38,851 nt of DNA from Candidatus Wolframiiraptor allenii (GTDB lineage Archaea; Thermoproteota; Nitrososphaeria_A; Caldarchaeales; Wolframiiraptoraceae), in assembly GCA_023539495.1 (NCBI GenBank), contig JAKCEV010000003.1:1-38851 (forward strand), in the 5' to 3' direction. The notes below the pieces were generated by a model. It was given only the letters and a program-made list of their open reading frames with translations. It did not search any database and was not told where the DNA came from. This document shows, piece after piece, positions 1 to 38,851 of the stretch (within the stretch, counting starts at the first letter, position 1; the number at the start of each line of letters is the position of its first letter). The translations under genes were made by a program, and so were the position numbers.

Positions 1-76
1 GACCCGGCCAAGGGCTAAACCTCCTAGGGAGGAGGGATGTAGCCCAAACCTCCCCACCCAAGTAGGGGAGGGGGGT
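1..76 (-). repeat. Copy A of a structured repeat (two hairpins), TnpB right-end/omega-RNA-like
   Basis: Reverse complement CCCCCCTCCCCTACTTGGGTGGGGAGGTTTGGGCTACATCCCTCCTCCCTAGGAGGTTTAGCCCTTGGCCGGGTC; shares the 22-mer TGGGGAGGTTTGGGCTACATCC with copy B and GGCCGGGTC with copy C. Confidence 0.6.
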
Positions 77-298
77 CATAAAGATGCAAGAAGGATGACT
101 CCTCCACATCTTTCTCTGCCCATTAGCTAGCTCAGCAATAACTTCCTCTAACCTCCTTTGACCCTCAGTTAATCTCATTATGGCATCTCTGACCTCAGCC
201 TGTCCGCGCCTAAGATCCTCCAAGCTTATGAGGCTGGCGACTGCATACCTGAACTCCTTATCCTCTTTTAAGGGTCTTAGAATCCTCGAATTTTTAGG
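1..298 (-). pseudogene. Fragment of a DUF3782 / coiled-coil PD-(D/E)XK-associated protein, running into a repeat at the window edge
   Basis: Open minus-strand frame from 298 down to 1 with no good start; reads ...RILRPLKEDKEFRYAVASLISLEDLRRGQAEVRDAIMRLTEGQRRLEEVIAELANGQRKMW..., resembling the 'EFRYAVAGLLGL' plus coiled coil of archaeal DUF3782 proteins. Confidence 0.45.
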
Positions 299-4735: not shown

Positions 4736-4777
4736 GAAAGAAGGGAAGGAGGAAGAAGGGCCTTGTGAAGGGCGAGA

Positions 4778-4838
4778 CCTTCTCCCTGCTTAGTGTGGGG
4801 AGGTTTGGGCTACATCCTCTCTTTCTGAGAGTTCAGCC
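4778..4838 (+). repeat. Copy B of the structured repeat, TnpB right-end/omega-RNA-like
   Basis: CCTTCTCCCTGCTTAGTGTGGGGAGGTTTGGGCTACATCCTCTCTTTCTGAGAGTTCAGCC; same two-hairpin layout as copies A and C. Confidence 0.6.
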
Positions 4839-4886
4839 GCATGCATTTGAATAACCCTCTCCTTTCATTCTCCACTTTCGGGGAGG

Positions 4887-4907
4887 CCCCCAAGAAATAA
4901 GGGCAGG
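4887..4907 (+). repeat. 21-mer dispersed repeat CCCCAAGAAATAAGGGCAGGC
   Basis: Identical to 37493-37513 (+) and 37117-37137 (-). Confidence 0.85.
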
Positions 4908-4935
4908 CTCTTAATAATGTCCAGGCGCTGTAAGC

Positions 4936-5154
4936 ATGAGGGCTACGGTAGGCTGGCTCAGGAGTAACCGCGATGCTTATTTCGAGACCCATGAAGTTGA
5001 GGATAAGGAGTTTTTGGAGAATGCCGGAAGAGTTTCGAATGAAGACCCCATCCATGATCCCGACAGGGATACAACATACTACGTGAGGGAGAAAGGTAGG
5101 CCTGTATGCAGGGTTGAGCCAAGCTACACCATAATCGTTAACGATGAGAGGTGA
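4936..5154 (+). CDS. Small hypothetical protein (72 aa) directly after the 21-mer repeat
   Basis: Uninterrupted ORF MRATVGWLRSNRDAYFETHEVEDKEF...; no recognised family. Confidence 0.35.
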   Translation: MRATVGWLRSNRDAYFETHEVEDKEFLENAGRVSNEDPIHDPDRDTTYYVREKGRPVCRVEPSYTIIVNDER

Positions 5155-25660: not shown

Positions 25661-26134
25661 GTGAAACCTTCATGTGCCGGGATCCTAATGGTGGAGGAGC
25701 GTTATGCGCTTGATCCCGTAGACCTCAAAATAATCGAGCTCTTGAAGAAAGATGGTAGGATGCCTTTCGTAGAGCTGGGGAAGAGGGTTGGATTGTCGGA
25801 GGCAGCTGTCAGGAGGAGAGTTAAGATACTCCAAGAGCGAGGGATAATCAAGAGGTTTACTGTGGATGTTGATGAAGGCTTCCAAGTGAGCGCTGTGATT
25901 TTTCTCCAATTCGAGTCGAGCAGCTTTCCAGGCGAGATTGTTGAGAAGATAGCTAGGGTGCCAGGAATCAGGGCGATCTACGAACTTACTGGGAGATTTG
26001 ACGCTATGGTGATAATCTCAGCCTCTAGGATCTCAGAGCTCAACGAGAGGATAGACAAGATAAGGGCGATAGAAGGGGTAAAGAGTACCGAAACCGCGGT
26101 CGTCCTGAGGGTCCTGACCCCCTCACTACCTTAA
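25661..26134 (+). CDS. Lrp/AsnC family transcriptional regulator (ATG at 25688 more likely start)
   Basis: LDPVDLKIIELLKKDGRMPFVELGKRVGLSEAAVRRRVKILQERGIIKRF plus RAM-type C-terminus. Confidence 0.9.
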   Translation: MKPSCAGILMVEERYALDPVDLKIIELLKKDGRMPFVELGKRVGLSEAAVRRRVKILQERGIIKRFTVDVDEGFQVSAVIFLQFESSSFPGEIVEKIARVPGIRAIYELTGRFDAMVIISASRISELNERIDKIRAIEGVKSTETAVVLRVLTPSLP

Positions 26135-26189
26135 GGTAGGGGGTTTGAGCCACATCCTCCCTTTTTGGGAGTTGGCCCGGGGCCGGGTC
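26118..26189 (+). repeat. Copy C of the structured repeat, TnpB right-end/omega-RNA-like, overlapping the 3' end of the Lrp gene
   Basis: CCCCCTCACTACCTTAAGGTAGGGGGTTTGAGCCACATCCTCCCTTTTTGGGAGTTGGCCCGGGGCCGGGTC; same two-hairpin layout. Confidence 0.6.
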
Positions 26190-26351
26190 TCCGGCCCATT
26201 ACCCCACCCCTCTCGGGGCTTGGGGTTATCGGCGCTATCAAGGTACTATTCAGCGTCATTAGATATTATATGTCGCAATGAGATCGGCTTTGAAGACCTT
26301 GTCCATCCTCGTACGCCTGAATAGCCCTCTGATGTGGGATTAGGGATATTA

Positions 26352-27525
26352 ATGCCTTCAATGAGATATCCTCCCGAAGACAGACTAATGGTAATCTACG
26401 AAGAGCGCTGGGATCTCGGCAAGCTGGTCACGTTCGTCCCTAACAAGAAGACCCCGATCTATAACTGGTTTTTTCTTTAAGGAGGGTTTTTCTCGCGAGT
26501 TTGTCCACATGATGCTCCGGGAGTTTGAGGTGGGCCCGGGCTCAATGGTCTTAGATCCATTTCTCGGATCAGGCACGACCCTCCTAGCATGTAAGGAGCT
26601 GGGCATAGATGGTGTGGGTGTGGATGTGGCCCCGCTCGCCGTCTTTGTGAGCAGGGTCAAGATAGCGGATTATGATCTCGAGAAGCTGAGGGAGACCGCG
26701 AAATGGCTTTTAAGTCAACCATTTAAGAGACCGAACATCTCATGCGTCAGCGGATTTGTCAGGCAATTCTTCCTAAAGCCGTCGCTCGAGGATATAATCT
26801 TCTTCAGAGAGAGGATTCGGGAGATTGAAGATCCTGTTGTCAGGAACTTCTTCACGCTGGCGCTAATGAATGCCGCTATGAAGGTCTCGCTAGCATACAA
26901 AGATGGCGCCGTCCTGAAGGTGATAAGGGATAAGCCCGTCCCACCGTTTAGGAAATTCTTCAAGAGGCTTATCAGGAGGATGATAAGGGATTTGACGAAG
27001 CTGAGCTTCAAGCCATGCAGGCTCGAGGTATATTTGGGTGATGCTAGGAGAATGAGCTTCCTCGAGGATGAGATGTTCGACACGATAATAACCTCACCAC
27101 CCTACCTCAATAAAATCGAATACACCAAGGTGTATAGGATCGAGTATGAGCTCTTCTTCGGCGATGTGAAGATCGACCCTGTCAGGTCCTATCTTGGGTT
27201 GAACCCAAAGAATATCGTGGATCAGTTCCCCGAGCTGAATCTGCCAGAAGTCGCGAAGGCATACTTCCATGATATGAGGCTTTGCTTGGAGGAAATGTTC
27301 AGGGTCCTTAAGCCTGGTGGAAGGGTTGCCCTCGTCGTCGCCGGGGGAGTTTTTCCCGATAGGGTTGTCGAGTCCGATAAGCTGATACTCGAGCTCGCCG
27401 AGAGGGTTGGATTCGAGCCAGAGAGGCTTATCGCCGTGAATAAGAGGGTTGCAACAACTAGGAGGGTGATAAAGATCGGAGAGGCAAGAGAGAGCATACT
27501 CATCTTTTCGAAGCCGAGAGCCTAG
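26352..27525 (+). pseudogene. DNA methyltransferase (N4-C/N6-A type) with an apparent 1-nt frameshift near 26475
   Basis: N-terminal MPSMRYPPEDRLMVIYEERWDLGKLVTFVPNKKTPIYNWFF, then +1 frame FKEGFSREFVHMMLREF...LDPFLGSGTTLLACKELGIDGVGVDVAPL...TIITSPPYLNKIEY. Confidence 0.8.
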
Positions 27526-37100: not shown

Positions 37101-37138
37101 TACCATTCTAATACACGCCTGCCCTTATTTCTTGGGGA
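37101..37138 (-). repeat. Left arm of 38-bp inverted repeat (contains the 21-mer)
   Basis: TACCATTCTAATACACGCCTGCCCTTATTTCTTGGGGA; reverse complement of 37492-37529 with one mismatch. Confidence 0.9.
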
Positions 37139-37192: not shown

Positions 37193-37498
37193 CTATGGTA
37201 TGCTCATCTCGGCGGCCTTCAGCTTGAATAGCATGGCATCCCACATCTCCTCCCAGACCTCCCCGAGATATTCGATCAATTGATTCCAGCTCATCACTCT
37301 GACCATGTCGCATCTTGTCACGCGCCTGTCGCCCTCGCCTACGCCCCTAACGACAAAATATTTAACATCGTCCCCGTCCCTGAACGGTATTATAAAGATC
37401 TGCTCCGAGTTCTTCTCATCGCCATGGAATCCCATTTTTAGCCGGCTTCCCGGCATCCCGACATCATAATAATCTTCCATTTTCAGGCAGGTCCCCAA
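37193..37498 (-). CDS. Hypothetical protein (101 aa) enclosed by the 38-bp inverted repeat; start may be internal (Met at 37480)
   Basis: Uninterrupted ORF; MEDYYDVGMPGSRLKMGFHGDEKNSEQIFIIPFRDGDDVKYFVVRG... Confidence 0.5.
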   Translation of the reverse strand: MGTCLKMEDYYDVGMPGSRLKMGFHGDEKNSEQIFIIPFRDGDDVKYFVVRGVGEGDRRVTRCDMVRVMSWNQLIEYLGEVWEEMWDAMLFKLKAAEMSIP

Positions 37499-37529: not shown

Positions 37530-37796
37530 TTGTGGAGGCATGGCTGGCTACGTGGATGCCTTCAAGGAGGCCGGCCCCTTAAGGAGTTTATTGGGGTCTT
37601 GGATTACGTGGACTCGGCACCTGCCATTGTTGAGAGATATAGGCCACCGCCGGTCATCGCTAGGACGCTCGTATATGATGACCTCAAAATGCTCGACGAC
37701 TTCGCCAGAGAGTACCGCGGGTATGTTGGCAAGGCGATGGACTACGTCTGCGAGGAGCTACGAAGCCTACTCTACGAAATCCTCGGAGGTGAGTGA
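37524..37796 (+). CDS. Small hypothetical protein overlapping the start of tnpB; true N-terminus unclear
   Basis: ...PLKEFIGVLDYVDSAPAIVERYRPPPVIARTLVYDDLKMLDDFAREYRGYVGKAMDYVCEELRSLLYEILGGE; stop overlaps tnpB GTG start (GTGA). Confidence 0.5.
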   Translation: MVLWRHGWLRGCLQGGRPLKEFIGVLDYVDSAPAIVERYRPPPVIARTLVYDDLKMLDDFAREYRGYVGKAMDYVCEELRSLLYEILGGE

Positions 37797-38851
37797 AGGT
37801 GAAGAGGAATTGTACTGTGGAGCTGGTGGTTGATGAGGAGACCAAGAAGAGGCTGAGACAGTTATGCGATCTTTCATCGAAGCTATGGAACGAGGTCAAT
37901 TACGCCAGGCTGAGGATGTGGCTGGAGAAGAGGCATATTGACTTTGATGGGACATATAGGGAGTTTTATGAGAAGTATAAGCCATTGATAGGCGCCGTCA
38001 CGACGCAGACGGTCCTGCTGAGGAATGGTAAGGCGTGGAAGAGCTTCTTCAGGCTGTTGGAGCTGAGGAGGGAGGGGAGGCTGCCGCCGTCTATAACAAG
38101 GGTCAGTCCGCCGGGATATAAGAAGAAGAGGAAGCCTAGGGTGCTGTGGACCATTATTAGAAAAGACCAGTACGAGATGGATGGCGACAGGATCGTCATA
38201 AAGTGGCTTGGCGCAATCGGCTGGATAGAGACGAAGTATAAGGGCCCAGTATATTTGAAGGGCGAGCGGGGAGAGCTCATGATACGCTATGACGCCGATA
38301 GAAAGAGGTGGTATGCCAACATAGCCTTCTCCAAGGTCTCCGAGAAGATGGTAAGGAGCGAGTGGAGGAGGGTGCCGCTGCGGCCGAAAGGCAACTTGAC
38401 CGCTGGCGTGGACATCGGAGTCAATAACATGTTAGCGGTATATGTTGAGGATGGGTCAACGAAGCTCGTCAATGGCAAGCCGCTGAAGGCGATATCGTAT
38501 TATTGGAGGAAGAAGATCGCCGAATACCAGTCCACGCTAAACGGGCATGGCCTAGAGACTTCCAAGAGGCTTAGGAGGATGTACGCAAAATGGAGGAGGC
38601 AGGTAAGAAGCTACATAAACGCCAAGGTGAGGGAGGCCGTAGAGTGGCTCTATGAAGTCGGCGTCTCCACGATTAAAGTTGGCTATCCGAGTATATCGCG
38701 CAGAGGAACGGCAACTTCGATAACGTCCACGTCTGGACGTATAAATATCTACTGAAGCGGATAGCGGAGATTGCCGAAGAACATGGAATCAGCGTCATCT
38801 ACGTTGATGAGAGAGGCACCTCGTCGAGGTGTCCATGGCATGGAGATGAAT
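37793..38851 (+). pseudogene. tnpB: TnpB (IS200/IS605 or IS607 family RuvC nuclease), frameshifted near 38690 and truncated by the window end
   Basis: RuvC I AGVDIGVNN; ...VGYP then +1 frame EYIAQRNGNFDNVHVWTYKYLLKRIAEIAEEHGISVIYVDERGTSSRCPWHGDE (RuvC II Glu and first zinc-ribbon Cys). Confidence 0.88.

Follow-up and report, generated by a model that had tools for sequence, protein, structure and literature searches.

Repeats on an archaeal contig as probable right ends and omega-RNA scaffolds of tnpB-only IS200/IS605-type elements

The window analysed here, a stretch of 38,851 nucleotides that makes up one whole contig (C13) of a draft metagenome assembly (1.316 Mb, 95 contigs), carries three copies, A, B and C, of a short repeat which is very probably the right end of IS200/IS605-type, tnpB-only ('IS1341-like') elements, with the scaffold of a TnpB omega RNA (reRNA) on the strand opposite to the one first described. 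An omega RNA of an IS605-type element is of a kind already known, of which this is a new member, and its abundance in the present genome is unusually high. The preliminary description of this DNA had placed copies at these three positions, which a sequence check and covariance-model matches bear out, and it was correct in likening them to the right ends of IS200/IS605 elements and to omega RNA.

The core 16-mer GGTTTGRGCYACATCC occurs at 57 places in the genome with at most two mismatches, as against one place for the reversed control, and the repeat is therefore far above chance. A covariance model built from 32 aligned copies, with the window copies excluded, gave 57 matches in the 1.3-Mb genome, and all three window copies (C, A and B) were recovered by this model trained without them. 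Scanning the genome and its relatives revealed strong covariation as well as a motif that adjoins tnpB, the two sequence-based points on which the earlier reading had been made to depend. Contigs of this draft assembly are frequently broken at the omega-RNA repeats.

Strand of the RNA and its association with tnpB

Copies oriented as GGATGTAGCCCAAACC share their 5' part and their 3' end, ..GGAGGTC, and are followed by copy-specific, unrelated sequence; the similarity ends sharply after GGTC, and the flanks are unique in about 50 copies. A profile search of the genome for the TnpB domain (PF07282) gave 32 matches. Wherever a TNB domain adjoins a model match in the genome, both have the same sense (20 of 20 pairs, none antisense), and the spacing from the domain to the scaffold match is exactly 7 nt in about half of these pairs. 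Open TnpB frames continue into the scaffold, the first hairpins of which encode the TnpB C-terminus (..PVTPEPRRGVGGNGRRPGQGLNLQKE). At about 20 loci of other archaea, with named archaeal records, the RNA is likewise in sense with tnpB wherever that gene is detectable and never antisense, and nearly all of these genes terminate at the RNA or within it.

Because the TNB domain and the model match are always in sense, the strand chosen in the preliminary description is the complement of the RNA. On the tnpB-sense strand, G-U pairs outnumber A-C mismatches by 43 to 12 within the genome and by 72 to 35 across genomes; as these counts would swap on the complementary strand, they provide an independent sign for the same choice. 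Both observations rule out the earlier strand as that of the RNA, which is plus for copy A and minus for copies B and C, and what had been said earlier on 5'/3' polarity, on the RNA end and on the guide side was consequently wrong too. It had also been stated that each of the three copies follows a coding or pseudo-coding frame of its own strand, which is true of the strand then chosen, but the guide side is then antisense to that gene. The case offers a lesson for annotation, namely that a right end is easily misread on the wrong strand.

Scaffold structure and covariation

The omega-RNA scaffold spans about 123 nt and overlaps with its 5' part the last codons of tnpB, its start lying within the last ~110 nt of that gene. 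Four helical units were found in the alignment of 32 copies (window copies excluded):

Helix 1: CCCC/GGGG hairpin
Helix 2: GGCCGG-AGAC-CCGGCC hairpin
Helix 3: two-layer hairpin, GGGCT..CCTCC/GGAGG..AGCCC
Helix 4: terminal hairpin, CCTCCCC/GGGGAGG, followed by the scaffold end GGAGGTC

A full copy folded as RNA has z = -6.0, and a hairpin whose structure is conserved with covariation lies no more than ~10 nt from the 3' end of the scaffold. In an alignment of 46 sequences from the present and other genomes, 95.4% of the cells are paired, 20 of 26 pairs show changes on both sides (reached by none of 500 shuffles) and 120 cells are double-changed against a shuffled mean of 28; fitting this alignment to the structure biases the result in favour of that structure, but the slid-structure controls nonetheless fall far below it. 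The compensatory stem changes noted earlier from three copies are thus real, and much stronger in the larger alignment. The two-hairpin fold proposed at that time was incomplete: both hairpins exist, but there are four helices, intact copies having further CCCC..GGGG and GGCCGGAGACCCGGCC hairpins upstream. The segment 'GGCCGGGTC', which had been taken for the RNA 3' end, is part of an upstream hairpin; the scaffold end is that on the opposite side (..GGTC), after which comes the variable guide.

A longer terminal hairpin (..CCCTCRCC..GGCGGGGAGGAGGTC) was observed at loci L012, L093, L096, L099 and L101 and at many loci of other genomes, and the short terminal hairpin of most copies in this genome looks derived.

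The window copies and the full element

Guide lengths in the lists below were set by analogy with guides of 16-20 nt. Copy A is represented by two features:

1 to 77, plus strand: 3' part of the omega-RNA scaffold and right end (model positions 49-123; RNA fold z = -3.75)
78 to 97, plus strand: presumed guide, unique sequence after ..GGTC, the sole place in the genome within 3 mismatches

The model match (1-76, 79.6 bits) is cut at its 5' end, in keeping with a right end of which the contig edge has left the 3' part; the 5' hairpins and tnpB would lie past the contig start.

Copy C comprises a full-length scaffold and what appears to be the remainder of its gene:

26116 to 26235, minus strand: full-length omega-RNA scaffold with four helices (94.3 bits, E 5e-23; RNA fold z = -2.06)
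26236 to 26372, minus strand: decayed 3' stub of tnpB (RGLFRR..DKVFKADLIA), 5' truncated (tblastn, residues 358-380, 61% identity; left limit approximate)
26096 to 26115, minus strand: presumed guide, which runs antisense to the 3'-terminal codons of the Lrp-like gene at 25661-26134; sister species align up to 26113

Three sister species have an empty site at copy C: similarity stops at 26113 and resumes beyond the element, and this break lies within 3 nt of the border between scaffold and guide (RNA end 26116). The empty site has AGCTTAT ahead of the guide sequence. As for the Lrp-like gene (plus strand), the inserted element supplies its last codons (..LTPSLP), and the sister species end differently.

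Copy B is best described as an internally deleted mini-element, in which the left end is joined to the last two scaffold helices:

4776 to 4913, minus strand: mini-element of 138 bp without tnpB, in which the left and right ends are fused (left-end hairpin GCCCTTATTTCTTGGGG; model match)
4888 to 4913, minus strand: left end TAAGAGCCTGCCCTTATTTCTTGGGG, with the hairpin in common with full elements
4914 to 4918, minus strand: ATTAT directly before the left end, a candidate transposon-adjacent motif from the sequence (cf. CTTAT in the empty site for copy C)
4776 to 4838, minus strand: last two omega-RNA helices (two-layer GGCT..AGCC and terminal hairpin) with the end GGTC, from the fold and the model match
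4756 to 4775, minus strand: presumed guide, running antisense to sequence immediately 3' of a moeA-like gene; unique within 3 mismatches

Its model match covers 4776-4906 (57.2 bits, E 2e-13), the first two scaffold helices being missing, and with two of four helices gone it may be unable to serve as a guide RNA. The junction recurs, in front of another flank, in a second copy at the end of contig C19 (locus L072; 94.5% identity over 91 bp), and the mini-element has therefore multiplied as a unit. No empty site for copy B was demonstrable in the sister species, the flank being too diverged. Copy B resembles MITE-like non-autonomous derivatives of insertion sequences in having both ends, being gene-free and being copied as a unit; unlike these, it keeps the last two omega-RNA helices.

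The organisation of a full element is illustrated near the other contig end by a tnpB of the same family:

37793 to 38755, plus strand: tnpB (OrfB_IS605, E 1.3e-27; guided_TnpB NF040570, E 1.8e-24, below the curated cut-off)
37121 to 37136, plus strand: left-end hairpin of this element, a 16-mer identical to that of copy B
37193 to 37498, minus strand: 101-aa ORF divergent from tnpB, recurring in many element copies and matching no Pfam or NCBIfam family

The frame of this tnpB breaks just ahead of the contig end, a TNB-domain match carrying on at 38743-38844, and its omega RNA would lie past the window. Full elements show the order left-end hairpin GCCCTTATTTCTTGGGG, divergent 101-aa ORF, 92-aa sense ORF, tnpB and omega RNA, with the left-end hairpin about 1.9 kb ahead of the core motif and subterminal hairpins at both left and right ends. 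The 101-aa ORF is flanked by the left-end hairpin on one side and by the same hairpin in inverted orientation on the other (also at L088, L031, L035, L061, L053 and others). The 92-aa ORF lies directly upstream of tnpB (L086:1403-1681, minus strand, also L042, L031, L059 and L061), has no family match, and recurs in many elements, among them some whose tnpB lacks the present omega RNA. Another short ORF, starting MR(I/A)(V/T)V..W, points away from the left end in three copies (window 4936-5154, plus strand; L094 at ~1162-1362; L087) and could belong to longer elements or else be a host gene that is repeated.

Intact partner TnpB proteins keep the Asp of RuvC-I and of RuvC-III, while the RuvC-II Glu is replaced by Gly-Tyr/His, and hence the canonical D-E-D triad is not found; a conserved Glu is located just before TSS, and activity, as far as the sequence indicates, would rest on this alternative residue. 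They resemble the 'RuvC-II rearranged' clades, which have been described without inactivity being presumed (PMC10278001). The genome, which is an estimated 96% complete and gave positive results for the controls, yielded no Y1 transposase TnpA (PF01797), and neither did it yield a serine recombinase (PF00239), the mark of an IS607-type element; their lack could be an assembly gap. Since PF01797 is missing from the genome and tnpB-only members are known (PMC10640517), the element was filed as a tnpB-only member. The missing RuvC-II Glu, together with the lack of a Y1 TnpA or serine recombinase to account for movement, counts against the right-end and omega-RNA explanation. Further, the TnpB matches that rank highest by Pfam score in the present genome (G000; C73:19859, C62:4888, C16:18581, C3:8390, C3:4025 and C59:14276) have no adjoining copy of the present omega RNA, and for this reason another omega-RNA type probably exists in the genome.

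By the established model, transcription would run from tnpB through the scaffold, past GGAGGTC and into the flank, of which the first ~16-20 nt would constitute the guide. TnpB would then cut its own mRNA, freeing scaffold and guide, and the guide would match the element's own empty donor site. Cleavage by TnpB at sites that have lost the element could thereby favour its retention.

Alternative explanations, known systems and distribution

Amongst 51 distinct copies of the core motif, 15 lie too near a contig end for assessment, tnpB or its remnants accompany 23, and 13 have no detectable tnpB nearby, that is 13 of the 36 with enough upstream sequence. The preliminary description had spoken of orphan guide-RNA scaffolds, and locally this is apt for copy B, which lacks tnpB, and copy C, which has a stub only, neither copy having an intact tnpB of its own, as it is for the 13 copies just mentioned, but not on the strand then proposed. 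That such copies are tnpB-independent guide-RNA genes on that strand, or a domesticated 3'-UTR RNA family, is hardly credible. A gene does end on that strand at all three window copies, about a third of the assessable copies lack a nearby tnpB, and a set of 15 mostly tnpB-less sequences (A and C included) still retains 94.4% of the pairs; but every tnpB-linked copy is in sense on the other strand, to which the G-U/A-C asymmetry points as well, the unique flanks and the empty site of copy C in sister species mark the copies as ends of mobile elements, and gene orientation on the guide side is just 24 versus 19 over 43 copies. Neither the guide of A nor that of B has another genomic match within 3 mismatches, and that of C has none within 2 and one at 3, so that the targeting of other genomic sites, as a regulator would need, was rejected. 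Selection on DNA only, with end hairpins recognised in single-stranded form by a transposase and no role for RNA, is very unlikely as well. IS200/IS605 ends do carry subterminal hairpins bound by TnpA (PMC10278001), and the left end here likewise has a hairpin; against this, G-U pairs exceed A-C mismatches on one strand alone, the four helices reach ~110 nt into the tnpB coding region, and the position and the 3' hairpin fit known omega RNAs. The hairpins likely have a dual role in DNA and RNA.

Within the right-end and omega-RNA explanation, we lean towards tnpB-less copies such as B and C being dead, decaying relics without function. The 94.4% of pairs kept in the mostly tnpB-less set, versus 98.7% in 20 tnpB-linked sequences, fits mild decay, and copy B is short of two helices while copy C is accompanied by a tnpB stub only; nevertheless some tnpB-less copies nearly match the best linked ones (140.8 versus 144.8 bits for the best of each), and two copies of the B-type mini-element share one junction but differ in their flanks. 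A rather unlikely suggestion is that the few intact TnpBs of the cell are loaded in trans by dozens of dispersed tnpB-less right ends, every one of which brings a guide of its own; in that case a protein not yet recognised, perhaps one of the element's small ORFs, could be what moves the elements in place of a recognisable Y1 or serine transposase. If trans action were true, non-autonomous mini-elements would be retained by a nuclease they do not encode and would amount to a scattered guide array. With 57 matches, and about a third of the assessable core-motif copies tnpB-less, the genome offers a direct test bed for trans use of omega RNA.

Insertion mainly antisense at gene 3' ends was also considered; the orientation counts, based on the longest open frame, are unconvincing, and the bias looks stronger among long frames by a cut that was chosen post hoc.

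In ISDra2, the reRNA consists of the tnpB 3' end and the right end, with its last ~16 nt from the flank (PMC8612924), and TnpB processes its own mRNA to release the scaffold and ~16-20 nt of flank (PMC8612924, PMC10278001); among orthologues the scaffold's 3' end coincides with the right end, and the guide boundary is recognised by an abrupt drop in conservation (PMC10278001). The present RNA is alike in its origin from the tnpB 3' end and right end, its flank guide, its 3' hairpin near the guide and its boundary by loss of conservation, a likeness of architecture; it differs from ISDra2 in the rearranged RuvC-II, where ISDra2 has the canonical triad, and in a genome without tnpA. The solo tnpB elements of Sulfolobus islandicus (PMC10640517) share by description a tnpB without tnpA, right-end inverted repeats and a non-conserved 3' flank; their TTTAT ahead of the left end agrees with ATTAT and CTTAT here, although two sites do not make a consensus, and unlike them the present elements have extra small ORFs. 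Haloarchaeal sotRNAs (Rfam RF02656 and RF02657, named in PMC12558985) are likewise sense RNAs overlapping the 3' end of an archaeal tnpB, however no Rfam family matched in the window at gathering thresholds, and a full scaffold copy gave a chance match alone (mir-1249, E 1.2).

The omega RNA described by the covariance model is distributed over many families of one archaeal phylum, and its TnpB clade has a rearranged RuvC-II. In a sample of the phylum, the RNA was found in 29 of 398 genomes, with from one to at least 8 copies listed in each; the congeners gave one model match, in one of seven, and there are few in the family. Relatives of the TnpB protein are mainly from Desulfurococcales, with one from Wolframiiraptor gerlachensis; the locus of that W. 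gerlachensis record is also present in a congener (G003), which indirectly makes this genus, or one close to it, the probable origin of the window. The patchy distribution of the RNA suggests horizontal arrival followed by a local burst.
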